A stretch of DNA of 64,000 nt from Halichondria panicea (lineage: Eukaryota > Porifera > Demospongiae > Suberitida > Halichondriidae). Shown here one piece after another: positions 8,921 through 58,036 of the stretch. Below the pieces are notes generated by a model, which saw only the letters and a program-made list of their open reading frames with translations, was not told the DNA's origin and made no database searches. The stretch lies in contig NC_087387.1 of assembly GCF_963675165.1 (NCBI RefSeq), positions 3,151,501 to 3,215,500 on the forward strand, read 5' to 3'. Position 1 is the first letter of the stretch; each line of letters opens with the position of its first letter. Position numbers and translations under genes: made by a program.

Positions 8921-11900
8921 ATGATGGCTAGTCAAGCTAACTCACTTCGTCGAAGCTCCTCAGTTTCCATCGGAGAGCAGTCTGAAACAGCCTACGAGTA
9001 CCTTTGTAGGCAGGAAGAAGCAAAAAGGTAGAGATATCTACTTGGATAGCTAGCTAGCTAGCTATTAAAAAGCACAAGCTGCTGATTTTATTGTCTTTGA
9101 TCTTTGATTAATAGACAACCGCTATGATTCTAGTTTTACCTACAAACTAGATGGTTGGAGAGTGTGCTGAGCTGTGAGCTCCCTGGTGCTCCTGCCCTTG
9201 AAGAAACGCTTCAGAATGGGGTAATCCTCTGTAAGTTGGGTATGAAGCTTCTACCAGACGATCAAATGTGGAATAGGGTATATGACCTTGATCAGTCCAA
9301 GTTCAAGGTTAGTTTTGCCAACAGTTCTCATTCCTCAAATTCTAGCTTGTGTGCCATTGGACGTTTCTATGATACTGACGTTTCTATGATACTGAACCCG
9401 TACATGTATTAAAGATCGGAAAATGGAGGCCTCCTCGCGAAAGTCATCCGCGTCATGTTTTTTTTACCCTCTGCCCAAACACATAATCTAGTTTAGGCGT
9501 GTCAGTATAATTAACTGTAAGGATGGAACCAGTTTGTAGTACATTTTTTAAGTTCTGCATTTCTTTGGTTATAATAGGCTTTATTTTTATGCCAACTACA
9601 GCAAACAGTCCATGTCTTGTTATAATTAGAAGAGGTTCACGTGTTTATCCCAACAGTATACATGTATGGCACTGTTATAAGTATGACAATTAAAACAGCT
9701 GTAACTTACCTCGAAAATGTTCCAATAACAGTACGAAGCACAATCTCTTGCAAAACTAACATTAATGAACCACAGATGAACCAAAGAGATGATGACTAAA
9801 ATGTTCATGCTTCATTTAACAAGGCTACACAGACTTGGGAGTTGGCTCCTAATGTATTGTGCTCTAATTTTCCTCATACCATTGCACTGTACAAGTTCAT
9901 TCCTAATTAGTCCATGCTCAATCTAGAGAGTTGCTTGTATCTGTGTCTGCACTGCACATTGCACTCTAATTTAGACACTCCTAATAATATGCCTCGAGGC
10001 GTAGCCGCACGAGGGATTCGGTAAAGCTGACTGTGTGTGTGTGTGTGTGTGTGTCTGTCTGTCTGTTCCAGCTGTAACTGCTCAACGGTTGCAATGCGCC
10101 AAAAACTGAAAACTAACAACGGCTTCTATAGGCTTCTAGCCACGTTCTCTTGGATTTTGTTTCGTGGATTAGCAACTTCTTTCTCGAGTTATGGCTAGTT
10201 TGACTCACATTGAAGGCTGTGCAGTCTCTTCAGAATCTTTCGTAGCATCATCTGTTCGCATGAAGTTTCTATTCAACTTATAAGTTAGTCTTGCACTAAA
10301 GCGCTAGCTCTTTGTTAGCTACAAGAGTTAGAAAAGAGCTGTAAAGCTATAGCTATACCATTAATTCTGTGAAATTAACCTCTTGCAGACACACCCCTTA
10401 TTCCTATGTAATGCGCATGCACGCTCATCCCCACGTGTGAGAGAATATCCAGATCATCCTGGCAGAATCTTCTTTTTGTTGAGGCCTGGTAAACACGTAC
10501 AATATAATTATGATAACAATATGCATGTACACAAGTCTTTTCTTCTCAGTTATGATAAATATAATTATTATATACACTGAGCCCCAGATCCTGGCAGAAT
10601 CAATTTGCTTCTCTCTTGAGGTCCACAAACACTACAATGATACCATAATACAATATTATAGATGTATGTACATGTCAGTGAGTTTATATAAGCTGACTTA
10701 ATTCATTATAGAAAAAAATACTTTTTGAGCGAAAGCATAACATGGCGAGAGGCATTAGCACACCCTGGAGTGCCCTCCCCATTGGCGGCAGCGCAGCTTG
10801 CAACACTCGTTAAGCATAGGGTTGTTATCTAACCATAAAATTATACATGCCGTGCCATAATTATACAGAACAGGTGCATGTTCAGTTTGTGTGTAAGTAA
10901 TAATTTTATACATATATATCTTGTACAGAATAAAGGACTTGACTACCGCTACACAGACAATATAAACTTCTGGTTGGCTTCTCTTCAAAAGCTTGGGCTT
11001 CCAAAGGTACATGTACATACACAAGTTTCTCTTGTTTATGAATATACAGACATTGTGCAGTACGTGTATGAAGGCCGGGCACGTGCATGTGTTCTATAGC
11101 TGGTATTTAGAAAAATTTAAGTTAGGATGAGCATTAGCCTTGGAAGGCATCTGCTACGTGTAAAAGTGTTTGCTTGTATAGTTTTGCATAGAGTATACTG
11201 TTTGTGTTTTTGATAGTTGAAAGTATCATTTTCACTTTCCACTTTGTTAGGTATTCTACCCTGTAATGACAGACATTTACCACAAGAAAAACATGCCAAA
11301 ACTCTTCTACTGTTTGCACGCATTGAGGTAAAGGATCTTCACACCGTAAAATTGTTAATTTAAAATGGAATATCTAGCCCACATTTCATGCATGGTACAT
11401 GTACAACGTCCCATGAACGCTCCATGTGTGGCCAGGGCCTTGAATTTAGGCTGTACTTAGACCCGGCTTTTGAAAATCTTTTGCAGCAAGTTGAATATCA
11501 GATGCATACCCTATTTAGTACTTTTTAATGGTGCATGCATAATTGTGACAGTCGGAGATATTTATATAGTTACAAGTGCTATATATAATAATTGTTGTCC
11601 TAAGTTCTGTAACTCCTCTGTAGCCATTTGCTGAAAGGAAAAGGGATGGTGCCAAAGGCAGTGGATGACCTTTATGGCACTGCTAAGTTTCCACGTAGGT
11701 TAATCTGATACCGTATATATAACTGGAAAATTTGGCGGGTATTATGTTTGGCGAATAAACCATTTTGAACCTGACTTAGCGGTTTTTATTGTCGCAGGCT
11801 AGCTGTAAAGAGTATGCAAAAGAGTAATGTGGGAGGGTCTGCTTGTACATGTGTAATTTTGCTTTAGTTTGCACCATTGCACAAGTCAAACATGTACTTA

Positions 11901-14900
11901 CTTTGCACATAAAATTTATTCACGTATGTTAACTTCTGAATTTTCTTGTCTTAGACGATGCTATTGTGCTGACAACTCAAACGCTGAGGGCCGGTGACAG
12001 AACTATGCCCACATTTGGTTTGGTCGAAAATCTCGTAGAGGAAGAGGTAGTTTCCTTGTGTAGCCGACTCACATGCAATAGCTTACTCAGTCAATAGTCA
12101 TGTGCTCATTAATGTACCTCGTAAGCAAGCCAAGCAGTTCGGATATGATTCGCAGCTGTCATTACCTATACAGGGGCCTTGTTGTACATACATGTACATA
12201 ATATGTACATGTACTACATTGATAATTGAGAACTCAGATAAATTTACTAGTTACAGTCACCCTTACACAAAATGTAGCTTCAATACATGTCGATGGGACT
12301 GTGTGAATCGTATGAGGAGGAGTTGCCTGCTTCCCCAAATGATGTGCGTGTAGCTCCATTGGCAGGCAGGCCACTCTTCGATGATCCCAAGTACATGACT
12401 ACCAATCAAGCCAAGCAACAAGTGAGTACACATGGTCATCATTCAAAGAGTTAGACCAAGCACGTGTTCCACGGTGGATGTCAGATTTAGGTTAAAAGCA
12501 CATTGTTCATTTGTGTAATTTGATCTCCATATCGAATAGACATGAGAAGTTAAATGATGTCATTCAGCATACAATGATCATACAGTTATCATAGTGATAC
12601 ATCTACATGTTTGTAGTACTGGTAGTGTTGATGACACTCTTGACACTCTTACAATCAGGTTGTTGAAGATGAGGATGGGCTGATTGGGACAGTGCCGTGT
12701 GTATCTGCTCAAATCACTGCTAGTCTCTACGTCAGGCGAAGTGCTATAAGAAAGAGCTCAGCCAACTTTACTTCATGTGTGTGCATGCACTGTACCTATA
12801 GGTGTTATTTTATCAATGGTAGTTTTGATATATCAGCGTAGTTACAGAATGTACCTCTGATCATAGAGTAGAATAGGGATGGAAACGGAAGTGATTCGCC
12901 AAAACAATTCTCATGAATTACTCATGTTAGCCTCCTCATGTATTAAAAGTAAGCCTCGTTAAACCGTGGAGATACACGGATGGTACTTTGAGGGTACTTC
13001 CGTTTCCAATCCCTCTTCTACTCTATCTACATGTATGCTCTGACTAACACAGCTATACCATGTCAGTGAATATACAATGAACACAGCTATGCAATTATGT
13101 TTACACATAACAAAAAATTATCATTGTCACACTCCCTGGATAATAATTATTAATTTGGTCCATAATTATGCAGTGGAAAACAGCTTGAGCACCTTGAATA
13201 TCACATTGGAGAAAGATGACCCTCAGGAAACATTGAAAGCATTGCAAAATCCTGATGCTAACTTTCCCTTTGTGTATCGTGACAAAGAAGCAGACAAATA
13301 CCACAAAGCATTGATAGAACAGAAGAAATGTGGAATGCCACAATGTTTGCTGGTAAGAATCTGACACTATGCGTTGTCACGTGTCTCCTATACGTACTAT
13401 TGGTTGAACACATGCATGCACACAGCCTGTGTTTGCTGGTGTGGACAGAGAAATGTGTGAGAACCTTTTAGAGAAAATGAGGTATGATGTATAATTATGT
13501 TGGTCACCATTACGATTGTTTATTTTGGTGTGGCTACTTTGTGTACTCTAGCCCCGGGGCTTTTGTTGTGAGAAGCAGCCAAACAGTTAATGGAGCATAT
13601 GTGTTCTCTTTCAAGTAAGTTTTTCGCTCGTACAATTTAAGTCATGCTACATGTATAATTATAATGTATGCATTATAGTGTAATAATTATGTATACATAG
13701 TGTAATTGCATGGCATGCTAAAATAACTTCCTTGCGTGTTAATAGTTAAGTATTCAGCCATGACGACTCGTTTCTTCCTAGTAGACATGTACATGCATGC
13801 AATGATAATGTTATAACCTCCTGAAATGTCTTATTGTCAGGAACCTTACTGGGATTAAACATTGGAAATTATCAACAAAAGCTGGAAAATTCTACTGGGG
13901 CACAAGTTCACTCCATGCATCTCTAGAGTCATTCATAGAGGTGAGTGTTGTGTGTATTAATTAAGTTATTGTTTATGTGCACTATACGTATAAGTATAAA
14001 GGTTGGTTATTGTTCTGGCTATAATGACCATTTCTGGTCGTGTGATAATTATAGTGTGTAGGAAAAGAGAATGACATAATTAATGTGGCTTATCATGTGA
14101 CTAGTGCACTGTGCTGTGCATGAAGTTCTAGTTTTTTTTTGTGCTTATAAATTATGTGTAGCTTTCATTACTGTACATGTAGAGTTTTGTGAAGGCTCTT
14201 GCTGAAGCTACCAAGTTGCTCATCTATTGTGGGATGACCTCTGTATTACAACCAGTGTTCACATCCACTGACTGTGAAGCTGTGAGTTGCTTGAGTAGTT
14301 AATTATATACATTCAGTTATGGTAAACAGGACTACTAGCTTAATTGTACCGAGACGTACAGCCTGATTGAGATATTAGAAGTGTGCAGTAGTTTGTTTTA
14401 TGGAACTAGAAATAGATACACACTTACTCAAACCAGGGTTAGCGTAGGCATAGAATAGGTACATGTAGGTTATGAAACGTCTGCAGTTATTGGGGAGAAA
14501 CATATAATTATAATTATCCATGCAGTACTTCAAATTTGTTGCATTTGTATACAGACAGTAACTTCCATGAGGGATTCCGACGACTCTCTGTCCTACGGCC
14601 AAGTCTGCCATGTCATCAAGGAAGTCAATAACTCCATTCGGAGGGGAAGAATATCAGTGAGTTAATTGATTAAACCCCTTATAGTCCTGCATACCAAAGT
14701 AACCCGATCAAGTCTTTAGTCATCATTACAATGTAAGATGAACAGTATGGATGAGCAACACACGTGCACTCATAATTATTATGTAGAGATATCTGTGTAG
14801 AGATATCTGGCATTTGGCTTGTATGTATGCTAGCTGCATGGTGATATTTGAACACACAAGGCGCCGGACTAGGGTGACTATAGCTGTGCGTGTTAATGTA

Positions 14901-17900
14901 TAGCATATTACTAGAATGTTTTGCGAGCATCAAACATTTGCGAATTTTGCGAGGGTTGATCAATTCGCAACAATAAAATCCGCAAAACCTAAATTATTAC
15001 TAGTAAATACACATGATCCTTTCCAGAACGCAATAGTTAGATCGCAAAGGGTCAAATTTTCTGCTGATTTGGCTCATTTGCAAAGGTTTTTCACTTGCAA
15101 AATATTCTAGTAATACGGTACTGTATAATTATAATTATGTGCTTGGTGTACATGTATGTATAGCCTGCTCTTTTAATGTTATGTGCTACACACAATTTCC
15201 AGCATGTGCACACAATAATATGATTGGTGCTTTCGTATCAAGCATGGATGCTGCTCATATTGTATATTGGGTTTTGCTTGCGAATTGTCGCATAGATTGC
15301 AAACGAAAGACATGCAAAGAGTGCATGAGCATGCGATTCGCAACAGTTTAGGGCATGTACCTTGTACATTGTCATTCGCAGATGATTTGAAACACGATAC
15401 CAATGTACGGTATAATGTGCCATTATAAAAAAGTATGCTAGGGAAATCCACCACTAAACATGATTGTGCATGTAATTATGTATCTTCAGCCAATTTTGCT
15501 ACATTGTCACTTTAAGTTAGTTCAAACTACCGTATAGCGGGTAATTTTCGGGGGACAAAATATTCGTGGTTCAGCAATATTGAGACATTTCGTGGGTAAT
15601 ATTTTCGTGGTTGCTGTTTGCACTTGCAGGTAAAGGTAGGCAAGGTCGCTTCATTCGTGGGTAAAATATTCGTGGTCAGACCTCCAACCATGAAAACCAC
15701 AAATATTTTACCCCACGAAAATTACACGCTATACGGTACCTCTTCAAATAGCGTTCACATTCATAGAATTTTGTCACTATAATAATAGCGCAGTAATTTT
15801 TGTTTCGACTACAGACTACAATGTAAGTAAGTAAGTAAGTTTCTCGCAACGCTTTTCCTCTGTCTATGAGGATTTTCAGGACATAATGCAAACAATTTCT
15901 AACCAACGTCAAGCACAGGAGCCAATATACTTTTGTTTGGAATTTAGTCTGTACTACATATAGCTCTCGTTAGTTTGGATCTAGATTCTAGAACCAGTTA
16001 TTTAATGAAAGCACCACGTCCGAGTGCTGATACCTCGGTGGAGGTGTCAAAGCTACATAACATAAAGCTACTAGCTATTAGCAATAGCTTACATGTATAT
16101 CATGATGAACATTTTTGCAAGTCATAAAGAGTCCCATGGGAAATGATCGACCATGATTGTTGTTCAAAAGGATCGATGCCAAAAGTCCAAGTCTAACTGC
16201 TACATCAGCAGAGCCTTGCAGCTCTCGCAGCTACCAATAGCTAGTGTTCTAGTGCAGAGCTAACTATTAAGTAGAGTAGCAACACTCCTACACACTCTTC
16301 TGAAAAGGCTGCAATGGCATTCCAAGTAAGCAAAACTAGGCATAACTCTAGAACCAAGTGCAAATCTACGAATTAAAAGTCTATAGAAACTCTTACTTGC
16401 ACTTCATTGATCATGGAGCAGCTGTAGCAGTCTACACACACAATGTACAAACTACGGTACCGTATACCACGCATGCGCAGCACCGAGGCATAATAATTAA
16501 TGCTAAACACGGTGTTTTACCCATTGTCCACTCTAAAAGAGCGTGCAGAGGTTCAAAACATTGAGGAGTTTTCAGCTCAAAAGATGTGCAGCTGTCGAGT
16601 CCTTGTATGACCGTTTTTGGTACATGTATATACAAGTACGTGTTTTTATTGGGTGTAGCATGTATGCTACATATAGACGTACATTATTCAGTGGAACCCC
16701 TCTATAACGGACACCTTTGGGGAACAATGTTTTGGCCTTTATACAGAGGTGGCCTTTGTTGAGAGGTTGTTTTGTACACAAACTGTTCATTTGGGACCTG
16801 AGTGCCTGGCCGTTATAATATAGCAAATGGCCTTTATTCGAAGGTGGTTGTTAACAGAGGTCCCGCTGTATCAGATTTCGCCTTAATTTTTGGCTTGCAT
16901 GCTTGCTGCACTCATTTTTTTTTGTAAGGGCTATAGGCAAACAGTACATGTGGTATATCTACTTGAAGTTTAACTATAATTATTGTTCCAGAATAATTAA
17001 TTATCTGTTTCAGGTAAATGAGTCCAGTCTTACACACAGCAGTGTCCGTGACGATGCTTGGGACGAGTCGGTAAATGTCTACTACCATTAGCCTTAATGA
17101 AAATCATGATTAATTTTGCACACACTACAGATGATCGTCAGTCTCAATAGATTGGAGGCAGAGGCAGAACTTGAGCTCAAGGGAAAGTGAGCAATTCTCA
17201 GCAGCTAGACAAGCATGAATATAATTATTGTACTGCTATTATTGTTAACAAATTAAAACCAAGTCGCCATAATTATATGGGTCTACGTTCCCACAGACCT
17301 GGGTCGTTCCTTGTTAGACCTAGTGAAAGATCTCCAGGGGATTATGCACTAGCATTCCGTACAAATACAGACACAAGACACTGGAGAATTGTCAAGAACA
17401 GCGGACGGTTCTATGTGCACCCAAGACCAAATCCGTATAACTCACTGCCAGAAATAATACAGGTTGGCACAGCGTATGCATGTCAACATTATATAAGTGA
17501 CATAAATATTATACGTACAGTAGCATCACCTTCAAACGTCTGTTAATACATTGTTGATACATACATGTACATCGATAGACATAATACCTTATCTGTAATA
17601 AAATTATACTGACATTGCATTGATTTCTAGCACTTCAAAGATGCAGTAGGCCAAGAAACCGGCTTGAATATGGTACCTTTGAGCCCAAAACAACCTTCAC
17701 CTCAGCATATTGGAAAATCTCAAACATTGCAACCCCCTTCTATACAAAGGCCAATTAGTAGTAAGGAAGACGTACTGCTGATCTTTACTTTTCCGTATAG
17801 CCACTTAACCATTAGATATCTACCATTTATTATATTATACTCATTTTCACATGCAGCTGTTGGTATTCCTTCACTGTCACTGTCCAAGTTGAATCCTGCA

Positions 17901-18128
17901 AACCTGACAAGCTGGAGTGTAGATGACGTGAGTTGCTGGTTGACTCAGCAAGGGTTGGGACGGTTTGTAGAAGTATTCCAGAACAATGCAGTGGATGGAG
18001 AATGTCTACTAGCTCTTGACAATACGTTGGTGAAAGATGACCTTGGCATAACTGCATTGGGACATAGATCAAGGATACTGAAAAGAGTTCAAGACCTGAA
18101 AGAACAATTTCATCCACAGCTGAGCTGA
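8921..18128 (+). CDS. CH-SH2-SH2-SAM fusion protein with IQGAP-like N-terminus (19 exons, 707 aa)
   Basis: Exons: 8921-9027, 9151-9307, 10929-11006, 11251-11327, 11624-11694, 11955-12046, 12278-12421, 12659-12776, 13174-13352, 13426-13481, 13552-13614, 13841-13940, 14183-14281, 14555-14656, 17014-17070, 17131-17186, 17297-17462, 17631-17760, 17857-18128; 2124 nt, in frame throughout. Residues 27-165 follow the IQGAP calponin-homology domain closely (AYEYLCRQEEAKRWLE, YTDNINFWLASLQKLGLPK, TDIYHKKNMPKLFYCLHALS). Similarity to IQGAP continues past the CH domain (MPTFGLVENLVEEE; ETLKALQNPDANFPFVYRD, to about 335). Residues 342-447 form an SH2 domain (FVVRSS, Arg367; HWKLS). Residues about 490-590 form a second SH2 domain (FLVRPS, Arg526; HWRIV). 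Residues 634-703 form a SAM domain. IQ motifs, WW, GAP-related and RasGAP-C domains are absent. Predicted role, by inference: an actin-binding adaptor recruited to phosphotyrosine. The start has two adjacent ATGs. Confidence 0.88.
9988..10813 (+). repeat. Full-length copy of the TATGCCTCGAGGCGTAGCC family
   Basis: It starts TATGCCTCGAGGCGTAGCCG, passes through a GT-rich microsatellite and CCAGCTGTAACTGCTCAACG, and ends with GAGCGAAAGCATAACATGGC, GAGAGGCATTAGCAC and CAACACTCG. Similar copies occur at 27.74-28.57, 29.99-32.29 (interrupted) and, inverted, 50.56-51.26 kb. TGCCTC near the start and GAGGCA near the end form a short inverted pair. No coding capacity was recognised. It lies in intron 2 of the fusion gene. 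Confidence 0.75.
12866..13028. mobile_element. Short inverted-repeat element (ATAGAGTAGAATAGGGATGG family)
   Basis: The left arm reads ATAGAGTAGAATAGGGATGG then AAACGGAAGTG. The right arm is the inverse, CTTCCGTTTCCAATCCCTC then TTCTACTCTAT. The element is about 163 bp and lies in intron 8 of the fusion gene. The centre shares the ACACGGATGGTACTTTGAGG sequence with the copies near 3.2 and 5.6 kb. Confidence 0.75.
14907..15115. mobile_element. MITE with TACTAGAATGTTTTGCGAGC end
   Basis: The left end TACTAGAATGTTTTGCGAG is matched by the inverse CTTGCAAAATATTCTAGTA at the right, giving about 209 bp with roughly 20-bp imperfect terminal repeats. A diverged relative with TTTGCGATCTAACCTTTGCG lies near 47.47-47.64 kb. 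It lies in intron 14 of the fusion gene. Confidence 0.65.
15528..15738. mobile_element. MITE of the TACCGTATAGCGGG family
   Basis: The left end is TACCGTATAGCGGGTAATTT and the right end is CGAAAATTACACGCTATACG followed by GTA. The 211-bp element is a relative of 6083-6286 and lies in intron 14 of the fusion gene. Confidence 0.8.
16005..16491 (-). repeat. Copy of the ATGCCTCGGTG repeat family (inverse orientation)
   Basis: It begins AATGAAAGCACCACGTCCGA and GATACCTCGGTGGAGGTG and ends GCATGCGCAGCACCGAGGCAT. The outer motif CCTCGGTG/CACCGAGG forms a short inverted pair. Nearly the same sequence occurs at 24190-24660 and 62989-63530, with partial copies at 4383-5010. No coding region was recognised. 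Confidence 0.75.
16690..16869. mobile_element. Decayed pogo/Tigger-like MITE
   Basis: CAGTGGAACCCCTCTATAAC at the left and AACAGAGGTCCCGCTG at the right are imperfect inverses. The body repeats 'ggccttta..gaggtgg' phrases several times. CAGTGGAACC(C/T)CT termini are typical of pogo/Tigger elements. The TA duplication is not clear on the left side, so the copy is diverged. Confidence 0.5.
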
Positions 18129-19357
18129 TTTAACTCTTTCGCTTTGTATTCTGAGTGTTTTTTGTATTAAATTTTAGTGTGTTAATTTTTGTAGTTCTGT
18201 TTCCTTTTTATAATTTGTAATAATAATAATTATTATGCACTAGAATATAATTGTAGTGCTTTGTAGATCTATATAGAGCTGCTGTAACATGATAGTTATA
18301 ATTGTACCATTAATTATAATGAAGAGCTGATGTAAAGAACATAATAATTAGTAGATTAATCAATCTACAGCTATAAGTATAATTATAGCGCTAGCTATAA
18401 TTATTATTATTATTATACGCATGCATCAAAAAAATTATATGGCTCAGCTCCCAAAAACTAACTATATGTTTTTGGGAGCTGAGTATGTTTTTAAATCTTG
18501 TATATGGCAGTCATAATTATTTTATACACACTACCCCATACAAACATAATTATAGACGATCTTTTTGGAAAAACTATTACCTGTCACATAAATTCGATCA
18601 TTACCGGTATAACATATAGACTATATATAATCAATTTATTAACGCATTCATAATTATCATCAAAAATACCGCTATTTTATTCTGCACAAAAACAGAGCCT
18701 AAAGGTGCGATTGAAAGACAACAGTGTCAGCTTTTTTTATACCAGGTGGCATGTACACACTCTCAGGGGTATTAAGGACTGTCCAAATTAAAATGACATG
18801 GAATTTTGTTATAATGATATTCATGTGCGCGACGTCATCGCTTTGGAATGTTTATCACGTGCGTGGGTGGCAAACGTCTGCAATTACTAGTGAGGGCGGA
18901 GCTTGGGTCACATGACACTGTACTTAATTTATTAAAGTTGACCGTAGCTAGTTGATCGAGTAAAACCCTGAAAGCATTTGTTGTAGGCTACCTAGTAGCT
19001 ATTAAAGGCCTTAACTAAGACTATTAGATAGTAGAGAACTTGTTTCCTGCTGCGCAAGACAGAGTGCAGCCAAGCAAGGAAGTTAGGAGGAGAAATCAGG
19101 GACAATTCAGGTAAATATTAGCTTGTTATTTGTATAGACCATGATTACCTATGAATCTGCTTTTGCGCAGCAGGATTTCATCAGTATATGATATGTACAT
19201 CAGGATTCCTGGAAAAGATAGGATCTAACTAACCTGGAACAAATGCTTTATTTATAATTAGTTTTACAATGAAATTTCATGTTAATTGGTCACATGATAA
19301 TCACATGATCTTTATTTTTGATTAAGGAAACTTAAATTTTTATGAGAAAACAAAATG
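18129..19357. other. Intergenic region downstream of the fusion gene
   Basis: This is a tail-to-tail interval between the plus-strand fusion gene and the minus-strand DUF1254 gene. It is very AT-rich, with many ATAATTAT words, and contains the perfect hairpin at 18443-18483. A stretch at 18.83-19.2 kb is less AT-rich but shows no coding similarity that I recognise. Confidence 0.6.
18443..18483. repeat. Perfect 16-bp hairpin
   Basis: CTCAGCTCCCAAAAAC is followed by a 9-base loop and then the exact inverse GTTTTTGGGAGCTGAG. It lies 315 bp after the fusion-gene stop codon and could fold in a 3' UTR or be a very small foldback element. The stem is too short for a typical microRNA precursor. Confidence 0.7.
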
Positions 19358-22139
19358 TCAAATTGATATGTTTAATATCGCACACTTTTCAACGTATGTG
19401 ACGTTGGTCTTTTCTTGATTCTGGACGTGCCTTAATGCACCTGAGCTATCAACGTTTTGCTTTGTTGGCCAGTAAATTCGCATGATAACATTAAACAGCC
19501 CTGACTTGTATCCTTCGTGACTTGGATCGGGAGCTGGTAGCCAGTTGGCAGCCTTGGCATCTGTATCGGGCTTATCTTTTTGAATATACAAGGTTAACGA
19601 TCCGTCATTGGCATACACCAAACCTTGAGTGCGATCACCAATGGAATATCGATCAATTGGATTCTGCACAAGTAGCCTCTCAGGCAAACGGTACATGGTC
19701 ACCGACCAGAAACCGGCTTCTCCAACTACTGGAAAACGGCCTGCTGGAAAAGTAAGGGTGAAGTTGTTTTTCGTACTATTGAGTGTGTCGCCATCGATAT
19801 CTTTGTTGGCAGAGGGATAGTAGGCTTCCTGAGGATCGACCCCATACAAACCTACTTTGGCAGCAAATGCTCGAGTGGCATACTTCCCTTTGAGAACAGT
19901 CCTTGTACCAAATATTGGCGGGTTAATAGCAGCTATCCACCCGTCTGATACGTTCCCGAAATGTTCGGTAATTGGTGCTAAATCAATCTTCTTCGCACCT
20001 ATTGTAACTCCAACGTTGATTTCTTCATACTTCACCCTGCTCATGGTTTGACCGTTAAATGTCATATTCGGTCCCACACAGATTTTGTTGAATTGCTGCA
20101 TGAGTTCACTCTCATCACTATACACGGATACGTAATTCATTATGAAGTTCACATACGTGAAAAAGAGTTGAGGCTCGGGAGTATCTTTGGAAAGTTCAGC
20201 GCTGTCAATGAAAGGGAACAAAGGAACATCTGCTGGACCTGCTGCTTCTCCCTGAGCTAGTGGAGTAAGGGTGTACCCTTTCTGAATTGCCTCCACATTT
20301 TGGATGTCTTCTTCACAATACACACCAGTGCGACCAAGCACAAACGTAAAACGGCTAGTAGACGTGATAATGTGGTCTTCGTCGAAATTGCTAGGTATAT
20401 TTCCATTGAAGGATGGACCAGTGATGAGGTAAGAAGCTGCATCCCAGCTGCCAGTTGTACGTGGGGAGATGATCTTCATGTTGTACGTGTACCCGTCCAC
20501 AATTTGAAAGCTGTAGTAACGCTGAAAGGAAAATTCCCAAAATGATTTTCTACACTTGCAATCATCGAAAGTAACGACTTTCACAGAAAACCAAACAAGA
20601 CAGTATTGGTTGTTACATGTTATGTCCTAAGAAGCAACCTGGCGTCGCGTATTCATGAGAAATGGCAAAAAGGCTAGCTACTTCTTAAGTTATTCTATAT
20701 CCAACAGATAAAAATACACGAGTTAGCTAGTGACATCCACACTTTTTTTAGCATTCTATTACGTTATACAGTAGACTCTCGTTAATCCGGTCACCCTTGG
20801 GACCATGCAGCTTGGCTGGAATAGCGAGGTGGCTGTATCTCAGGAAATAGCCGCGGCTTAAAAACGTCCTTACCTCGAATCTAATGACTACTTCTGCGGT
20901 TCTTGTCTCGAGGATAATGAATCATACCCAAAATGTCATATTCGGCCGTAATATACGTATAAAATTACATTGAAAACCTTGTTTGGGACAGCCAGCACTA
21001 GCCGGTAAACGGAATAGCGAGTGGCCGTACTTCAGGGTGAGTTTTGTGCAGTAAACATATAGCTAGCATTCCGTGCCAAGCCAAATGGCCGGTATATCAA
21101 GGTGGCCGTACTTCAGAGAGCCGGAATAGCGAGAGTCTACTGTACAGCGAACTGTCAATTAAGATGCACTTAAATTGTGGCACGTCTCTGTTTGACATGC
21201 ACACACGCGCAACATGTCCCATAGTAGTACATGTATTATTCACTACAGTACATTACTTCCTAAGTCGAATCTAGTTGGGTGGAGTCCAACCCTCTGCGAG
21301 TGGTTGGGTATCATGACAATAATAATTATATGTTTTTGTTCCACTGGTTTGGGCAGAGTATGAATATTGTTTATTCTTAAGTGGCTGACAACCGCATAGC
21401 CTCCCTTCACCGACCCACTTCCCTGAATGAAGTGCGGCCTGGGATCGAGGCTAACAACCACCTGGCTCAGGGGTGCGATATAAAGTAGACTACATCGATC
21501 TAGCTATAACTGTTTTAGGATGCAATTAGAGAAAGTAGAAGGATACTGCAGCCTGTAATACAACATGTACAAGATTTAGCAGAGGCAGAAATAATTATTG
21601 CCTTGTCAGCTAAATTGAGCTGTAAGGTTTCCCAACCTGAACGCTGCAAGCTGCAAGTTTTCTGCAGTTAGAACAAAAACGTATATTGTCATGATACCCA
21701 ACCACTCGCAGAGGGTTGGACTCCGCCCAACTAAGTCGAATCATCGTTCGTATCAATAGCGAGAGGGTCATTCTCAACATTGCTTTTAAGCTACGTACAT
21801 GTCATGCATGTATATAGAATGTACTATAGTACAGTCATGTAATTGTACAAAGGCAGGAACCTTTTTGTTATTGTCCATCACAGGAACCGCTGGTAGCCCT
21901 AGAATCATTGGAGTCTTGTCCAAGTCTAGCCAGGCTCTGGAGTAGAGAGTATCATTGTTGGGAGACACCACACTTGTGAACCTCCAGTCCACCAACGTGG
22001 TGCTATGCCTAAACTGGTTCAAGGGCGCAAAAGCAGGGCTGTGTGGCCATATGGAGGCCTGAAACAAATTCTTGAGGTTCTGGACTACTGGGTAGAAGTA
22101 AACATAGGCGTCACTTGCTACCTCTACTGTCTCCATCAT
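19358..22139 (-). CDS. DUF1254/DUF1214 domain protein (bacterial-type), 2 exons
   Basis: Exon 1 is 22139-21861 (93 codons) and exon 2 is 20521-19358; together they give 480 residues, joined in phase 0 at AAAAAG|GT...CAG|CGT. The N-terminal half has DUF1254 hallmarks: VVSPNNDTLYSRAWLDLDKT and, across the junction, RYYSFQIVDGYTYN. The C-terminal half has DUF1214 hallmarks: FWSVTMYRLPERLLVQNP, RYSIGDRT, and NWLPAPDPS followed by MRIYWP. The biochemical role of the family is unknown. Most members I know are bacterial, with scattered eukaryotic ones, so ancient lateral transfer is plausible; the intron shows residence in a eukaryotic genome. An upstream exon encoding a signal peptide cannot be excluded. 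The intron contains two transposons (20769-21142 and 21272-21733). Confidence 0.85.
20769..21142. mobile_element. pogo/Tigger-like MITE flanked by TA
   Basis: The ends CAGTAGACTCTCGTTAATCC and GGAATAGCGAGAGTCTACTG are near-perfect inverses. TA lies on both sides (20767-20768 and 21143-21144), as expected for a Tc/mariner-superfamily insertion. The body has several 'gtggccgtacttcag' repeats and no transposase. It lies in the intron of the DUF1254/1214 gene. Confidence 0.8.
21272..21733. mobile_element. Mutator-like non-autonomous element, 49-bp TIRs and 9-bp duplication
   Basis: It starts TAGTTGGGTGGAGTCCAACC (21272-21320) and ends with the inverse arm at 21685-21733, differing at one position over 49 bp. 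AGTCGAATC flanks both sides (21263-21271 and 21734-21742). TAG...CTA termini, long inverted repeats and a 9-bp duplication fit Mutator-like elements. It is 462 bp, has no transposase, and sits in the intron of the DUF1254/1214 gene. Confidence 0.88.
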
Positions 22140-37869: not shown

Positions 37870-40800
37870 ATGAGCAGTGACAGGCTCAGAAGTAGGAGAC
37901 ATGGCAAGAACAGACACTTCACTACCAGTGGACAGTATTCTCTGAGAAATGAAGGTAGGTAATAATTGAAAACACACACAATACCACTGTCAATCTTATG
38001 TACAACCTACTGGCTGTACTATAACTAGCTAGGATACTTGAACCAGTTATATTGCTTGTGTATTATGTTTGTTGGCAGGTGCTCGGGCCTGTGATCGAAG
38101 GACCGATATCGATAGCTCTAGCAATTATAGAACCACAGGAAGCTCCTACTATGAAGGGGATGACTCAGTGAGTGTGAGCAGCCACCCTCTAATTCAAGAA
38201 GGTCATGTGTATTATTCAGATGAGGACTACGTTGAGAACTTGGATAGATCTAGTTACCAACTGTGTGATCGAAGGCCGGATCTCAGATCAGATTATGGAC
38301 ATCATGACTACCACCAACATCATGATTACAAGCATCACCAGTATGCAATGCCTCGAAGGAGGCTGTATGATGGTGAAGATCCAATAGCTGATTCTCGATC
38401 CCATTGCAACTCATTGTATGAAGAAAATGATCGCGACGAGTGTCGGCAACCTGGTCCTAGTAGGCACACTTCACGTTCTGACTTGCCCAATGACCAAGAT
38501 GTTAGTACGAGCCAACAGTACAGCCCACTTTTAATAAATGAAGTTATCAATCAAGAAAGCTTACATAGAGATCGTGACAATTGGACATCCTCTGAAACGG
38601 GCGGTCCTTATGATAATCATGAAAGTCATTTTTGGTCAAAAAGGAATGAAACAAGTTCTAGATATTTGCCACAGGTTGCGCCAGATGATGTCCAACACCC
38701 TCCTTCGTTAATGTCTCTCAACTGTAACAGTGAAGCTTTGCAACACCCGGTTATGTCCTCGAGTAGGTACAGTGAACAGTTTGGACATCCAACACAAGTT
38801 AAAGTCGAAGAATGTAACAACCATGTGCGTGCCGAAAGGATGCCGCCAGAACCTTTAATGTCACTTCCTGTAAAAAACATTCATGCATTGAGATTCTATA
38901 GAAAAGACAATCTTCAAAAAGGGTACAGGGACAATGATACTAGCTTGCAGCCATTAATGTCCGTTTCTAATGAAGATTATCCGTCGAGTAGCTACGAGAG
39001 GTCAGATGTTATGCATGGTTTTGAAAGAGAGCCAACCTTTGTGTTTTCTCGTCTTGGACGAGAAACTCCTTACACTAGTGCAGACGAGTCCGATTACTTT
39101 TCTACGAGCATGCGAGAACCTAACCCTAACAACTCCTTCTCTGACCTGCGCTGCACTCCAATTGATTACGGAACAGGTAATTCTGAAGCAGGAACATACC
39201 CTCCACAAACAGATGTTCTATCAACATACCCTCCAAGAGCAGATGTTCTATCTAGGCTTGGCCCTGAAAATCTACCTACTGCAAGTATTCCCAAACAACA
39301 TGAAGATTTGCGGCTGTCGCTACGTCACTCAACCATAGCAAATACCGAACATATAGACTTGCGCATGTCTCTACCCCTAACACATCAAATATTACCTAGC
39401 AAATTTGAAACTGATTCTGCAGGGAGAAGTATTGCATGTCCCACTAACACTGGACCGTCTTTGTTGTCGTCTAGACTGAGCTCCTTAGTTGATGTTCTAC
39501 CGAATGTTAAAGAGTTTGTTAGTTCAGAGGTGGAGCCTTCATCATTTGACTTACCTTTCAGCAAAATTGATGGTTCAACTGTAGAAAAAACACGCATGTT
39601 GCAATCTGCTATTGAAAGTGACTTACCCCTAAAGTATTCATCTCTGCAAAAGCCAAGTGTAGTTCCTACTACTTATCCAAAGTCTTCCTCAAGGCGAAAA
39701 CCTAAAGGTTTGATTTCTAAAAATTCTTCGCAACACTGTGTTTCTCGTACAAAACGAAGTACAGTATCTTCTAAGCGTACTAAACATCGAACTAGATCGC
39801 ATGGATCTCTTGAAATGTGGAACAAAATGTCCTCGTATTCGAAACCATCTAACAAAACACCAGTTGATAAACAAAAGGTACACATCCGTAGACTTTCAAA
39901 AAGTGTGATCGGTAATATAACCGAGCATCTCTACGTTTCCAGTGATTCTAAAAGCTGTTTGCTTACTCGTCTCTACAATGCATGTGCTGTGGTGGTTGAA
40001 GTCTTGTCGAAAGAAAATAATAATGATATAAAATGTCTCCAAACTCTATGTCATCACTTTTCTGGATTTTTCTGTGCCACCCTAGTATCAACGCACCTTT
40101 TACCAGTCAGTAATGAAGATCTTTTCACAAAAGAATTGAGTCACCTTCGAGCGACTTGTGGTAATAATATCACTAAGTGGAGAAAAGAAATCAATAAATT
40201 TGTGTATTTAGCAGGAACAATTGCTAATTTAGTGAAGGATATTACTGTTCTCGATGAAAGGAGCCTGTCACCCAAATCGCTAATGCTCGATATCAGCAGT
40301 GCTGATTTTGTTGGATATAGACCACCGAAATCTGAACCTAATGTAAGTCCAGCTGCTCAGGCCAGGGAGAAATGCGACAATGGAGACAAGAACCGGTGTG
40401 TGGCTAAAAGGTTAGAAACTGTTGCTTCTCAACCCTCACAGCATCCTTCTCTGACAACTAGCACTGTTGAAGTAACGAAACCCACAAATCTCATTAAAGA
40501 TAGCGTCATTGTGCAACGATCTGGACATGCTGTTAGCACATCTGTTAAGTTTATGAGCCCCAACAAAGGGTCTAGTGGAGATTTTCCCGAGGTAATAAGC
40601 ATGCTAAAAGAGGTTAAGCCTGCAAGTGCTGAAGAGAGCGGTGCACACCCGGTAAATGGAAGTGACCCTGTACAAACACAGTCTCTATCAAGACAGTCCT
40701 TGGTACCATCCTCATCGGAAGATATTCAACCGTCCAAACCGATTTCTAAGACACCAACTCCTCTGGACAAAACCAATCCCATGGACAATGGAAGTCAACT

Positions 40801-43800
40801 ATCACCCCGTGTTAAAGAAATATCCCCGTTACCCGCAAATCATGTGGAACAGTTCAAATGTCATTCTGCGCCACCAAAATCGCTGGAAGATGAAATATTG
40901 TTGCTTCAAAAATCCTATTCTTCTCAAGATGAAGAGGCAGTTTACTTACCATTAAATCCAACTGAGGTATGTAGTCCTGAAGATGTACAGACAGGTCAGT
41001 CTGTGCATCGTCCTAGTGTGCAAGACGGACTGTGCGATGATATGCACCCTGTTCACCCTGTTCAAACAGCCATCTCTCTAAAAGAGGACCAGAAGTCTTG
41101 TGTGAAAGAACGGAAAACTCAGAAACAAGACAATCAAACTTCTACTACTGATCGTCAACTCGGCAGTATCAAAGATCAAGAATATCATGACTCAATCAAT
41201 GACAAGCAGCTACCCGTTTTGGTTACGTCGAACATTCCTGTTGGCTCTCTAAAAAGAACAGACAAAGGGCTAAAATCTTTGCTTGAAATTGTGATGTGTG
41301 GTGCTGTGCATACTGATTCTACAAAGCAAGATAATACCCCTCCGCTTGACAACTCGAAATTGCTTCCTCATAGCCAGAAATTGTGTTTAGTCAGCACCAC
41401 TACAAGTATAGTACCTTCTGAATCGCATTTAGTGGGATCGAGCACTGTTAACCTTTCTGGTCCAGACTGTAAAGGAAAGTGCTCTCCTGATAGAGCTAAA
41501 AATGTAGTCAGCAAACGTTTGGAAAGAGGTAGTCTTAGTCCAGGAGAAATTGTCAGCACTTCACCATCTCCAAGTCCTCCTCCTCCTCTTCCTGAACAGA
41601 ATAATGGTGGTAGAAAACTAGATTCCCATAACAAAATCCGACTTCATGAGAGTCAGCCTTCACTTAGCAGTAACGAAAGGAACAGTAGAATGAGAAGCAG
41701 TTCAGAGAAAAACAGTTATAAGAGAAGGCCTTATGTTCAACAACCCAGCAGGCGGAAAGTTTCTCGGTCAAGTGTAGTTAGCAAATCTAGGAAGAAAAAC
41801 CCCCTGAAAAAGATCAACTCAGACAGCGATGACGAGCTTGAGTTGTTGGATCTGCGAAAGAAAGCACTAATGTCAATGATTCAAGATAAGAAGTCCAGCG
41901 CACCTGTGTCAGCGCAGGGGTACGTAATACATGTTATTTGTCCTTTAGCTATAATTTTACTACTAATTAATGGTATCAATGCCAGCATTAGAAGTTAGAC
42001 TGTAAATATGGCACACGAATTTTTGTATTGTGGAACTTTTCGTATCTTTCGTATTGTAGAGCATCATCCAAAAATTAGAGCTATTACAGTTGAGCCTCGG
42101 TTATCCGAATCCCGGTTATCCGAATCCTCGATTATCCGAATGCTAGAGCATAGTGCAATCTGAGCATGCGCAGTAGGAAATTGCCCACGTGGCTGGCAAA
42201 AAGAAGCCAGCTGGCATGTTTTGATTATCCGAATATTTCACTTATCCAAATGGGCCCGGGGACAAAGGTGTTCGGATAACCGAGGCTCAACTGTATACGA
42301 CATTAGTAGTCCATACAGTACGTAGTTCATATATACGAAAATGTGCACAAACCTATATGCCGTTTGATTATGTCAGTACCTGTGATGTGCACAAGCTTCT
42401 CCATTTTTGTAGGAAATTGACTAGTCCTGGGAAACCAAGTGGTTTTACTCCTTTTGGACAAGACGTCTTTGAAACTATAGACATGGAAATTTGCAGTGAG
42501 TCTGACACAGATGTCGAATTGCCTACTAACACAGAATTTAAGCGTACGAGTGACAGCTCCCAGCTAGTCAATGAAATAGATAGTAACAAATTAGCGACTA
42601 TTAACACTGAAGGTAAGTTTGGGTTAGATAGAAAACAAAGCTCAGTAACATCTCTAGATGAAAGCAGAGACAAAGCGGCATCCAGCGAAGCTAGTGTTAG
42701 AGCAGCTGTTGAAAAAGAGAAAGCCAAGAACCTTCCCATGGAAAGAAAACCTTCCACCGATGCTACTGTTGTTCCACCTTTAAAATCTGTTCCAGTACAG
42801 ATACCATCGTTTGTTGTCAAGGTTTGTAATGTAGCTCGCTATGTAAGTATTATATAATTATATTGATTTTCTGTAGGTCTTGCCTGGAAATGAAAAAACC
42901 TGGAATATCGAGCCAGTCCATATCATGCCACACAATGACAGTGATAGCGAAGAGCAAGACTCTGAATTGCAACAAAAGAAGAGCCCCCAGAAAGCTGTGT
43001 CTCGTGTTAGCCAGTTTCTAATTCAAGCAAGAAATGCTTCACTTGAGCCCAAGGATGTTAATGTATGCAGATACTAGATATTTACTTTATATTGAAGTAA
43101 ACAACTTTTTTAAATTAAATTTTGTGCCTTTGCAGGTTGTGCAGCCAAACCCAAGATCTATTCCGAAGTCTATGCCTTTATTGTTGCCGACTCCAAAGAA
43201 GAAAGAATACTTGCAGCTGAAGATGAAACTGGAGATGCATGAGAGAAAAAAACGCCTAAGAACACACTCCAGTAAAAACTGTCTTTCCACCAGCAGCTCT
43301 CCAGAAAGAAGTAGACAGCCTACTCCTGAAAAGGTACCCACATTTTTTTTGTTAGAATGTTTGTAATCTTTTTTTTTTGCTTTTAGTCTAAATCATTAAT
43401 GGAGTCTCCTGGACGTAAGAGTGTGAACCACAAAGCGATTGATCTCAGTCTACATGTAGCTTTGAAGAATTACGAAAACCAGCTTCAAAGTTATCAGTAA
43501 GGCAATACTTTTTGTCATAAAGCTTATCATTCATTTCCGGTCGTTACAGGAATGTGCAGGAGGGTAATCTTTCTGACCTTAACTCTTTGACGGAAAAACT
43601 CACCGACTGTGAATTGAATATTGAAGAATGTGATGTAAAGATAGTTGAATTAGAGGCACAACAGAAACACTTGCAAAACAAAATTTTGGTAAGTTGTCTT
43701 CTACAGTACAATTACATGTATGCACGTATGTTCTACGTTCTTCTATGTATTGTAATTAGTAATAAATTATTATAGTAATGGTCAATGTACATTAAATTGT

Positions 43801-46800: not shown

Positions 46801-49800
46801 TTTATTGGCATATGGAGCTGTTTTCTGAGGCTGTGCTGAAGTCATTCAATGTATGCTTGCTGTTACATAACTTATATTTGACTTGGTCTTGCTGCTTACT
46901 GCATGGTTTAATTATATTCATAATCATGTCCTTTCCGTGGTTACTACTGTGGTTGCAAGCCAAATTACACATGCAAGTTTTACTAAAATGACTGTATCAT
47001 TGACAAGGCTTTAGTGCAATCTTAACTAATGTTGAATGGGAATGTGCAAATAGATGAAATTGATGCTACAAACGATTCAAAAGAGGCCTTCTCTGTACAT
47101 CTGTAAAAGTAACCGTAACTCGAGAAAAAAGCGAATCCACAAATCAAACAGAAAATTTTTGCACTTTTTTTTATCAACAGTCGTAGTCAATTATTCCCCA
47201 CTTCTTTGTCCCTGAAATTAAGTACCATAATTATAATTATGGTTCCATTAGCTAGGTGTAGCTATGCCTCAAGCTATTGTGCTTGGATTTTTGTATGTTA
47301 ACTTTTCAACACGACAGTGCACGACAAGAAGTAATGTAAAGATATAATTCCACTGTACAGGAATACAGGGATACAGGGGTATACAACTCAGTACTCTGAT
47401 GTTATTGTGCATAATTATTATATACATCTAGTCCGTACATTTCTTCAGCTATGCAATTTAGGTGTGGAAGATCGTGTTAGCAACTTTGCGATCTAACCTT
47501 TGCGTTCTGGCAAGGATAGTGATGTCATAGAAGTCTGGTATAGGTATTAGCGATTTTACGATTTTGTTTTTGCGAAGCGCTCAAATGCTAATGTTTGATG
47601 CTCGAAAAACACTCCTGTGATTAATACGGTATATTTATAGTGGTGGTGCCAATTTATAATCACGTTTTGGAGCATCCAAATAATATTATATAGTGGACAT
47701 ACACTTTGGAGCAAGCGGTTTTAATGGTGGTTTTATTGGTTGTCTCCAGTTTCAGTGAACAGAATGTCCAGCATGGGGTTTTGTGTCAGTATAATGTTGA
47801 GTGTAGGGGGTCTTAATTCATTATGCTCTGTATACTATAGGCTGCGAAAACTATTCAAGTTCAAGCTGTAGAAAACAAATCTGTGCTGCAAACTGAAGTG
47901 AGAGCTGTGAAGAATAGTGTCAGTGCAACAGGGAGAAAGATTGAGCATGTCAAAAGTGAAATTAAACTAACGAAAGCCTCATTGTCTTGTTTAAATGAGT
48001 TATCGCCAATATCCACGAGCACTGCTTTGATTTCCTTAAAAAGTTTTAAATCATCAAATACCAAAGTTGTATCTCCATTTCCAAGTCAGCATACACCAAT
48101 TCCTGACATTCTAATTGAGCCTGTGTCTCAGCATCATACACCAATTCCTGACATTCTAATTGAGCCTGTGTCTGATTGTGATGCCAGTACATGTAACTCT
48201 GTTTTAGAGATAGAACCAATTTCTGACAGTGAAGTAAGTGAAGAAAGTCTATCTAAAGCTGCAAACCTGATAGTTGTAGAAGCAATCAGCGATACAGAAA
48301 TGGATACATCTAGTGCTCACCACACAGACAATCGATCTAGTGCATTTGAAAGTGCTTCTGTTGCTGAGGAAAACCGCTGTATCAAACCAGTCGGGAACAG
48401 TGTCGATGAATTGCATTCTACCTCAATAATTACTAAAACCTGCCAAATCGATTGTTTTAGTAACCTGTCTCAGTCCACTACTAGCTGTGTATGTCTTCCT
48501 GAAACCATTGTGAATGCTCAGGCTGCATCAGACTGCTTTGGTAGTGCACAGATTATTGGTTCATCAAAAGGTGTAAGTGTAAAAACTGCTGATTACAGTA
48601 CGTCTGAGAGTACTCAAAGTCCAAAACCTGAACCTGTTTTTGTGCAGGAAGAACGCTCTATGCAATGTTCCCTTCCCCAAACACCAATTACCGGTAATGC
48701 TATTGCTTGGAGTACATTGCAGCTCAAACCTCAATTATGCACACCTGTTACCAAAACTGGAAGTGTGCCAAATCTTGTTCCTGTCAATAAGATATTTTAC
48801 AACGGAACGAATAACCTTTTCTCATTAGGAAATGAACCACCTTGTTTGGCTGTTTCAGTGAATAATCTTGAGTCGCTTGATGTTGAATCTGCTTGCATTA
48901 ACGAATCTTTGCTGAAGGACATTCAACAGAAGGCTACACTTCCGGATGCTACACATTCCTGTAATCCAACTTCATCTTCTGTTTGCTCTCAGCAAAGTAC
49001 TTTGTTTCGAAACAGAAAACAAAAAAAACCCTTACACATGACCCTCAAACGTAAAGCAGAAATGCTCAGTAAAGAACGTGGTATAGATCTTGCAAAAGAA
49101 GTATCGGCATTAAAAGTCCCTACAAGCTCAAATGATATTAAAACTGCTGCATGTGGAAAACTGCAGGGTGCTAAAAAGCGAAAGCGATCACTTAAAAATA
49201 TGAGTTTCAAAATTCTGGATTCGAAACGTATGAAATTAGTTAATAATCAAGCTAAGACGTGTTTCCAAGTCAAGGATGTAGCTGATGTAGATAGCCGTGA
49301 TTCAACCCGTACATCTTCTGGTGTAGACAAAGTAACTGTTACCTTGCAACAGGCTTTCGAATCAGTTGCTCAAGAAAGCAGAACTGTGAAATCTACTCAA
49401 GTTTTGAAATTATTACAGGCTACTGGTGCTTTTCCTGTGAGTCAAGCAACCCATTCCATATCAACATGTAGTCAAGTGGACATCTCTACAATCTTCAGTC
49501 GTACCAAACTACGTACAGATCAGTCCAGCTCCTCAGTTGTGAAAATGTCAGCTACCTCCTTGGATGTTCCTCGGAGAACTAGCTGCACTAAAATAGGTAA
49601 AGTGTATACTCCATACTCGTCTCCTCTTCTCTCATTCAGCTCCTACATGTTAAGCCCCGCCTATCGGCAACAGGAGAAACTACAGCTTAGCTCTATCACG
49701 CACTCATGTAAATTGAATCCGAAGCAAGTTTTGTGTAAGTTTGAATTGTTAGGGGTGTGTAAAGATCCTAAGTGCGATTCTCAGCATTTGCGACAAGTGG

Positions 49801-51144
49801 TACTGTCTAATAAAGAGATTGTCACCAGGCTTGTTACCCATACTCCCAAAATGGCACAGTGCACACCAGCTGAACTTGAAATTGCTGAAGTAACTCAGCC
49901 AGAGTATAGGAAACTCATTGTAAACAAGATCTCAAAGTATGCATCGTCAGTGGTGGAACGTTATTCCCCAAAGCTTTCTGACGAGGAGATATACCAATTT
50001 ACAGCACATGAAGTCAATAAAGCAATGGCGGTAGATGATCCAAAACATGGCAAACATCATTTTGTTAGTTTTAGTGATAGAGGCTGGTTAGTCAAAACCA
50101 ATGTAGAGAGTCAGTTTAGCCCTGCTGTTGGAGTCAACGTGCCAGAGCTGGGTGTGTCTTATCCAGAACGAACTGACATTGCATTGTCTGGTGACAATAA
50201 TGACACACCCAAAAGGTATTCCATCGTTAATCTGGTTAATTGTCATTTAACCCTTTTTTTCTTTTGATAGGCGATACTTCAAATCCTGTGTTGAGAAACC
50301 CCACCCAGATACGTTTGCTGAGGACGGTGTGAAGCACTGGCTGGAAAAGGCTGATAACTGTATTTCACAGAACAAATGGGACGAGGCTCTAACGTCCCTA
50401 AGTGAAGGGCTTAAGAAGCACAATAAATCGGTGGTATGTTGAATATATTTTGCTGAATATGTTCGTAGTGCTAGCTTTAGCTGTTACTATAGTGGCAGTA
50501 TATTGAATGCCACAAAAATTTAAGTAGGCCCAAACCCTTTTCAAAACCGAATATAACGAGTGTTGCCAGCTGCGCTGTGCTAATGCCTCTCGCCATGTTA
50601 TGCTTTCGCTCAAAAGTGTTATAGTAGTTAGAGATGAATTTTACATTAAAAATTGCATACAAAGAAAGCTAAAAACTCTGTGTACATGCATCTATTGTAT
50701 ATGGTACCATTGTTACATGTAGTATTGTTTTGTGGCTTACCAGCCTCAAGAAAGATGAAAATTGATTCTGCTAAGGGTTCAAAATGGATTGTCTCACACA
50801 TGGGGATGAGCGCGCATGCGCATTAGATCTGGAATAAGGATGTGCCTGCAAGAGGTCAAGTTCCCAAAAATTAAATTGCTAGCTGCTTTAGCAGCTCTTT
50901 TCTGACTCCTGTAGCTAATAAAAAGCTAGCGCTTTAGTGCAAGGCTAACTCATAAGTTTAATAGAAACTTTGTGCGAACAAATGATGCTATGACAGATTC
51001 TGCAACAGCCCTCAATGTGAAGCCATAACTCGAAAAAGAAGCTTTAGTTTGCTAATCCACGAATCAAAATCCAAGAGAAGCCTATAGAAGCTGTTAGTTT
51101 CGTCGCATTGCAACCGTTGAGCAGTTAGATGTACAGCTGGAACA

Positions 51145-57700: not shown

Positions 57701-58036
57701 TTGAGACATTTCCGAGATTGTTCCAATAGTTCTACCTTTGTCAGATATATACATGGGCTCACAGTCTAATTCTCGTGATGTTGGCTGCTGAGTCACTGGC
57801 ATTATCGCACTATCAGATGTATATGCTCTCGGTCTCATGTACGAGTGTTGTCGAAACTGTTTTGTCTCTTGTGGGAAGTCGAACATCTTCTTCATGGGAA
57901 CACCAACTACAGGCACATCAGTATCAATAGTTTTAGAAGGCTGGTAGTATTCTATGTGTGAATACCTATCCTTCTGTCTTCTGCCCTTGAAGCAGGGATC
58001 ACAGCAGCATTCACAGCACAACTGTGAACACTCCAT
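54776..58036 (-). CDS. Synaptotagmin-17-like double C2 protein A, 3 exons (417 aa)
   Basis: Exons 58036-57254, 55585-55468 and 55128-54776 join in phase (1254 nt). There is no transmembrane segment. The N-terminus has a cysteine cluster (MECSQLCCECCCDPCF) that is a likely palmitoylation site, as in synaptotagmin-17 (B/K protein). After a Ser/Thr/Pro-rich linker come C2A (about 136-250) and C2B (about 262-400; RFATGDLLLSLCYIPQSN, ADPYVKVYLL, VMDHDMFRRNDVIG, HWHKLIPHP). C2B keeps ADPYVK and DHDMFRRND acidic residues but has RPHKWG where the first calcium ligand is expected. C2A lacks most loop-1 ligands. Calcium-independent membrane traffic is therefore the more likely role, by inference. It is tail-to-tail with ZFC3H1 (294 bp). 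Confidence 0.85.
55682..55815. repeat. Foldback repeat around GTGCAACATGCCATATATTG
   Basis: AGTTATTGCCCAGCCAGAGT and GCAACATGCCATATATTGCA are followed by CTGGA. After a short centre come the inverse TCCAGTGCAATATATGGCAT, GTTGCACGAGGGCGCC and TGCAATAACT. It is a foldback of about 134 bp in intron 1 of synaptotagmin A. GCAACATGCCATATA recurs at 57050, within the larger repeat-rich stretch to 57.1 kb. Confidence 0.7.
56090..56700. repeat. Inverted-repeat element in synaptotagmin A intron 1
   Basis: GTGCCACATGGGATATATTG then GCTCAGTAGTGACTTAGTCT and CAGCCCTCCTGAGAAGGGGT (56102-56170) has its inverse pieces at 56523-56675 (ACCCCTTCTCAGGAGGGGGC; ACTACTGAGCCAATATATCC, CATGTGGCA). The right side contains a short extra duplication of CTGATCCATGAGAC. 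It is non-coding and looks like a rearranged foldback transposon. Confidence 0.6.

Follow-up and report, generated by a model that had tools for sequence, protein, structure and literature searches.

A predicted gene of the sponge Halichondria panicea that joins an IQGAP-type N-terminal part to two SH2 domains and a SAM domain

Gene model and domain content

We analysed a 64,000-nucleotide stretch of the genome of the demosponge Halichondria panicea (NC_087387.1, positions 3,151,501 to 3,215,500, forward strand), referred to below as the window and numbered from its first letter. Positions 8921-18128 of its plus strand hold a predicted gene, the fusion gene, in which an IQGAP-type N-terminal part with a CH domain precedes two SH2 domains (SH2-1 and SH2-2) and a SAM domain. 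Rebuilding the gene from the window sequence yielded 19 exons with consistent phases, all 18 introns having GT..AG ends and the stop codon lying at 18126-18128, in agreement with the initial annotation, which had joined 19 exons into one 707-residue frame without a phase break. That annotation had also read the remainder of the protein as SH2-SH2-SAM and proposed a search for CH, SH2 and SAM_1; in the Pfam scan of the 707-residue protein, all four domains (CH, SH2, SH2, SAM_1) exceeded the gathering score. The features of the locus, with the evidence used for each, are as follows.

8921-9027, 9151-9307, 10929-11006, 11251-11327, 11624-11694 and 11955-12046, plus strand: exons 1-6, IQGAP-type N-terminus (Pfam, PDB, introns)
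12278-12421 and 12659-12776, plus strand: exons 7-8, linker, residues 195-281 (codon scores)
13174-13352, plus strand: exon 9, IQGAP repeat core, residues 282-341 (hidden Markov model, HMM, of IQGAP repeat cores from contig C7)
13353-13425, plus strand: intron 9, 73 bp, the joint between the CH and SH2 parts
13426-13481, 13552-13614 and 13841-13940, plus strand: exons 10-12, SH2-1, motifs FVVRSS and HWKL (Pfam SH2)
14183-14281, plus strand: exon 13, linker
14555-14656, plus strand: exon 14, possible IQGAP-repeat-like helix at residues 457-478 (BLOSUM profile)
14657-17013, plus strand: intron 14, 2357 bp
15528-15738: high-copy inverted-repeat element of 211 bp inside intron 14
17014-17070, plus strand: exon 15, linker exon of 57 nt (phase 0 on both sides)
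17131-17186, 17297-17462 and 17631-17760, plus strand: exons 16-18, SH2-2 and linker, motifs FLVRPS and HWRI (Pfam match at residues 505-576)
17857-18128, plus strand: exon 19, SAM domain (17910-18101) and stop codon (SAM_1 at residues 636-699, 1.2e-14)
18166-18171, plus strand: possible poly(A) signal ATTAAA just past the stop codon (consensus match only)

Codon usage was evaluated by scoring every exon against stop-free intron windows of the fusion gene. For 12 of the 19 exons (1, 2, 6-10, 13, 15-17 and 19), less than 1% of the intron windows scored as high; the counts were 0/305 and 0/508 for the linker exons 7 and 8, 15/1934 for exon 15, and 0/16 for exon 19, for which just 16 windows were available for comparison. 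Between 1 and 5% of the intron windows scored as high as exons 3, 5, 14 and 18. Codon usage failed to separate exons 4, 11 and 12 from intron windows (43%, 11% and 20%, respectively), and these exons therefore rest on homology, as CH or SH2 sequence.

An N-terminal part of IQGAP origin

The same genome (131 Mb, 39 contigs) also keeps a full IQGAP gene, on contig C7, with CH, six repeats, IQ, RasGAP and RasGAP_C parts; its splice sites, repeat count and repeat intron positions were read by eye. This contig carries the only two RasGAP_C matches found in the genome, together with the best RasGAP match (C7:3406491). A WW domain, with a Pfam score of 26.2, slightly below the cut-off of 26.9, sits between the core of the last repeat (repeat 6) of this IQGAP and the second helix of that repeat.

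The CH domain of the fusion protein was identified at residues 29-142 (Pfam 2.8e-13). In a PDB search, the closest solved structure for residues 20-194 was human IQGAP1 (2rr8, 8e-43), and the list was headed by three IQGAP1 chains followed by the yeast-type Rng2 chain 1p5s and 1p2x. As IQGAP1 and Rng2 chains top the list, the CH domain is of the IQGAP type, and the likeness extends past it. The N-termini of the fusion protein and the C7 IQGAP share 83 identical residues over 184 aligned positions, and all six introns of the stretch of exons 1-6 match those of the C7 gene in both position and phase (2, 0, 0, 2, 1, 0). A search of the sponge's own genome at E≤10 with the linker exons 7-8 returned no match other than these exons themselves.

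Exon 9 scored 41.6 bits, at residues 287-329, with an HMM built from five of the C7 IQGAP repeat cores (repeat 4, the most divergent, being left out), a score reached by none of 2000 shuffles (highest value 4.4). By eye, a phase-1 intron precedes its conserved Asn by eight residues, the arrangement of C7 repeats 2-6 but not of repeat 1. The N-terminal part of the gene is thus almost certainly a partial IQGAP paralog, if judged by the sequence likeness of exons 1-6 and 9. The initial annotation, in which the N-terminal third followed IQGAP, correctly assigned the type of the CH domain and drew the extent too short: the homology runs to residue 194 and is found again in the repeat of exon 9, a feature missing from that annotation, together with the possible helix of exon 14.

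The SH2 pair and the SAM domain

The two SH2 domains gave a joint Pfam value of 5.3e-26 (1e-9 for SH2-1 alone and 4.3e-16 for SH2-2 alone), and exon 10 starts at about the first SH2 position. For the SAM domain, the nearest solved structure was tir-1/SARM1 (3.5e-8). The FLVR arginine (FVVRSS, FLVRPS) and the His of strand D, features of phosphotyrosine-binding SH2 domains, are retained in both SH2s, as read from the translation.

A phylogenetic tree was estimated for 27 SH2 domains of the genome: the two from the fusion gene, one RASA1-like SH2 joined from its exons, and 24 of the 71 genome Pfam SH2 matches, selected as nearly full length (C10:1971593, C2:1904568 and some other long matches were left out). 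SH2-1 and SH2-2 were sisters in this tree, with support values of 99/96, and SH2-2 was the best genome match of SH2-1 outside its own exons (35%, E 9e-4). The intron structures are also alike, both domains having a 56-nt first exon running from phase 0 to phase 2, an intron directly ahead of the PG(A/S)F sequence and, at the end, one of phase 0; SH2-1 holds one more internal intron than SH2-2. Within the limits set by such short domains, the pair would have arisen by duplication inside the gene. Three points count against the overall account: the tree tool flagged SH2-1 as a long row of unsure placement, five other SH2s of the genome outscored SH2-1 in blastp searches with SH2-2, and the usual Trp at position 1 is absent from both domains in the tree alignment.

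A RASA1 origin of the pair was considered and rejected. The intron before the FLVR strand is in phase 1 in the RASA1-like C-terminal SH2 and in phase 2 here, and the 27-row tree did not group the pair with the RASA1-like SH2s.

Placement of SH2-1 relative to the IQGAP repeats

A second IQGAP-like element may follow SH2-1. With a BLOSUM profile (position-specific scoring matrix) of the six C7 IQGAP helices, no window of the protein scored higher than residues 457-478, which resemble the second helix of IQGAP repeats. Shuffling the whole protein gave this score in 17 of 5000 trials, and shuffling the linker in 3 of 5000. The value of 16 obtained compares with 19-30 for the true C7 helices when each was left out of the profile. 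Against this assignment, the helix was not significant in HMMER (-1.3 bits, reached by 91 of 2000 shuffles). The fusion protein would contain one repeat core (exon 9) and, doubtfully, a partial second repeat (residues 457-478), versus six repeats in the C7 IQGAP.

The positions of these elements suggest, with somewhat more in favour than against, that SH2-1 is flanked by the core of an IQGAP repeat and the helix belonging to it. In the C7 IQGAP, the WW domain holds this place in the last repeat, so SH2-1 may fill the WW slot. The possibility that exon 9 derives specifically from repeat 6, which bears the WW, was considered and dropped, because repeats 1 and 3 give it higher scores; the idea of a WW slot is accordingly one of position only, and is a lead rather than a result.

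One gene or two neighbouring genes

The model is predicted from genomic DNA alone, and one of its exons, exon 15, is merely 57 nt long; these points weigh against a single gene, as do several features of introns 9 and 14 and of exon 16 set out below.

Intron 9 separates the IQGAP-like and SH2 parts, and the initial annotation had placed the possible break at this joint of exons 9 and 10. One report argues that gene-prediction errors create false new architectures (PMC4967905), and an error here would mean that an unrelated SH2 gene had been joined to a neighbouring fragment resembling IQGAP. In leave-one-out scoring, introns 8 and 9 do have the weakest acceptors of the 18 (-1.9 and -0.7 bits, respectively). 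However, 73 bp is too short a gap to accommodate both the end of one gene and the start of another. It contains no AATAAA or ATTAAA; reading through from exon 9 into the intron meets a stop after three codons. Exon 10 is an open frame with no ATG before a Met inside the SH2 domain, exons 1-9 showed neither a stop nor a frameshift on rebuilding, and an IQGAP-like helix, albeit a weak one, appears again after SH2-1. A gene break at intron 9 is very unlikely, and a chimeric model of this kind is the most improbable of the alternatives considered.

The weakest joint of the model is intron 14, rather than intron 9. A CH-repeat-SH2 gene ending within these 2357 bp could be followed by an SH2-SAM gene starting from exon 15 or 16: the intron contains three AATAAA/ATTAAA-type hexamers, against an expectation of 1.15 if all four bases were equally frequent, read-through from exon 14 stops after two codons, and exon 16 opens with an ATG, making a second gene starting there conceivable. 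That SH2-2 scores higher with five further SH2 domains of this genome than with SH2-1 would fit such neighbours too. On the other side, the expectation of 1.15 ignores the high A+T content, and an excess to three hexamers is not striking. Part of the length of the intron is explained by the 211-bp element, which is of the mobile kind and for which at least 40 full or near-full-length genome matches at 96-100% identity, its own included, were obtained from the 40 of 1994 first-look candidates that were scored; a second inverted-repeat pair spans a further 220 bp (14901-15120). Exon 14 ends in a GT donor, and exon 15 is in phase 0 on both sides. Finally, the SH2s flanking intron 14 are sisters with matching intron phases, which favours one gene and fits duplication within it, although tandem genes could give the same pattern. 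We consider two neighbouring genes improbable, and the fusion gene is very probably a single gene.

Comparison with known families

The fusion protein resembles IQGAP1-3 in its N-terminus, with the CH domain, the neck to residue 194 and one repeat, and its introns match those of the genome's own IQGAP; it differs from the family in carrying SH2, SH2 and SAM domains in place of the usual tail. Pfam scans of the 707-residue protein gave no WW domain at E≤1, no RasGAP-like domain and no RasGAP_C, and IQ motifs were found neither by Pfam nor by pattern. VAV, the domains of which include DH, PH, C1 and SH3, likewise has an N-terminal CH domain and an SH2 further on, but the CH domain here is of the IQGAP type and the Pfam scan revealed no DH or PH between CH and SH2. 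SHIP (SH2-5-phosphatase-SAM) likewise has an SH2 before a C-terminal SAM, and no inositol 5-phosphatase domain was detected in the fusion protein by Pfam. In the whole-protein PDB search, the best SH2 chain was 8dgq of RASA1 (SH2-SH3-SH2), at 5.2e-19 for two stretches together, the better of which covered residues 505-597; unlike RASA1, the fusion protein has no SH3, PH or GAP domain. SLP-76 has an N-terminal SAM and a single C-terminal SH2, whereas the SAM of the fusion protein is C-terminal and its SH2s are two.

Occurrence of the architecture

Genome-wide Pfam searches gave 71 SH2, 47 SAM and 61 CH matches, among which four pairs of different domains lay on the same strand within 20 kb of each other. 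One was the fusion gene; the others corresponded to a gene on contig C9 that we take to be SHIP-like, a presumably VAV-like gene on C10, and a SAM upstream of an SH2 on C4. Because the domain lists treat each exon separately, domains split between exons escape them, as do the CH and SH2-1 of the fusion gene itself, and further fusions may have gone unnoticed. The C4 locus (C4:1809001-1819000) contains what we assume to be a p85-PI3K-like gene, seemingly with SAM and C1 upstream of RhoGAP and SH2, an unusual layout if this is one gene.

A whole-protein search of the genome (31 matches) revealed no second copy of the fusion gene. One match on contig C6, over residues 307-382, was examined as a paralog of the CH/SH2 joint and dropped, because only its SH2 part, presumably tensin-like, was convincing. 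Six stretches of prokaryote contigs fitted the pattern of the whole protein and three stretches of viral contigs that of the C-terminal 366 residues, none being confirmed; this yield of no relative from another species also counts against the model. No CH-SH2-SH2-SAM protein appeared among the literature matches listed, as judged by title and the start of the abstract. This agrees with the view in the initial annotation that the architecture is undescribed, which is not thereby established, eukaryotic proteomes having been outside the search; its novelty is provisional. The accompanying claim that the gene was made by joining exons is supported, the exons being of known kinds of gene, and the introns shared with the C7 IQGAP make the history of the gene readable.

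Proposed function

In the scheme that we propose, a partial IQGAP copy (CH, neck and one repeat) would have been joined to an SH2 pair duplicated within the gene and to a C-terminal SAM. The SH2 pair would recognise tyrosine-phosphorylated receptors or adhesion proteins, the CH domain would attach to F-actin in the manner of the IQGAP N-terminus, and the SAM would bring copies of the protein together in clusters. Such a protein would anchor actin where tyrosines are phosphorylated, while lacking the IQ, RasGAP-like and RasGAP_C parts. Taken as a whole, a single-gene, IQGAP-derived SH2-SH2-SAM adaptor is probably the best explanation of the locus; the function itself, linking phosphotyrosine to actin, is predicted from domain content and could equally well prove right or wrong. 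The protein might instead compete with the full IQGAP, sharing its CH partners and having no RasGAP-like tail. The retention of the full IQGAP in the same genome and the absence of IQ, RasGAP and RasGAP_C from the paralog would suit a competitor; no result obtained here separates it from an adaptor, and we regard it as unlikely.

IQGAP1 is described as a scaffold to which SH2 proteins dock by way of a phosphotyrosine: human IQGAP1 phosphorylated at Tyr1510 is reported to bind Abl1 and Abl2 (PMC9913818). The PRD and SAM region of SHIP2 is reported to be bound by IQGAP2 (PMC7139352). In these mammalian cases, the corresponding parts meet by binding as separate proteins; here, they would lie in one chain. 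That parts which interact elsewhere are fused speaks for a shared pathway without proving it. If the front of IQGAP is indeed fused to SH2s, gene fusion would be a further route by which a link between tyrosine kinases and actin arose, and the parental IQGAP, kept alongside it in the genome, would serve as a control. The case was observed as one predicted gene in one genome. More tentatively, the adaptor could represent a second, phosphotyrosine-reading branch of IQGAP, in which an SH2 first took over the WW slot and later underwent duplication, the GTPase-binding tail giving way to a SAM. Were this so, docking would be built into the chain, whereas mammals phosphorylate IQGAP.

Other features of the window

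Beside the fusion gene lies an intronless open reading frame of 422 residues with DUF1254 and DUF1214 (19358-20626, minus strand). Relatives are encoded by 66 of 84 pattern-matching prokaryote stretches, the best by E-value, at 35-37%, being from Bradyrhizobium, and the frame is a candidate for bacterial origin. An open frame of 1318 residues (38042-41998, plus strand) gave no Pfam match at E≤0.01. Two open frames on the minus strand (57209-58057 and 61434-62477) each contain a C2 domain and possibly form one gene or a pair, and an open frame of 808 residues (47841-50267, plus strand) carries a zf-C3H1 motif.

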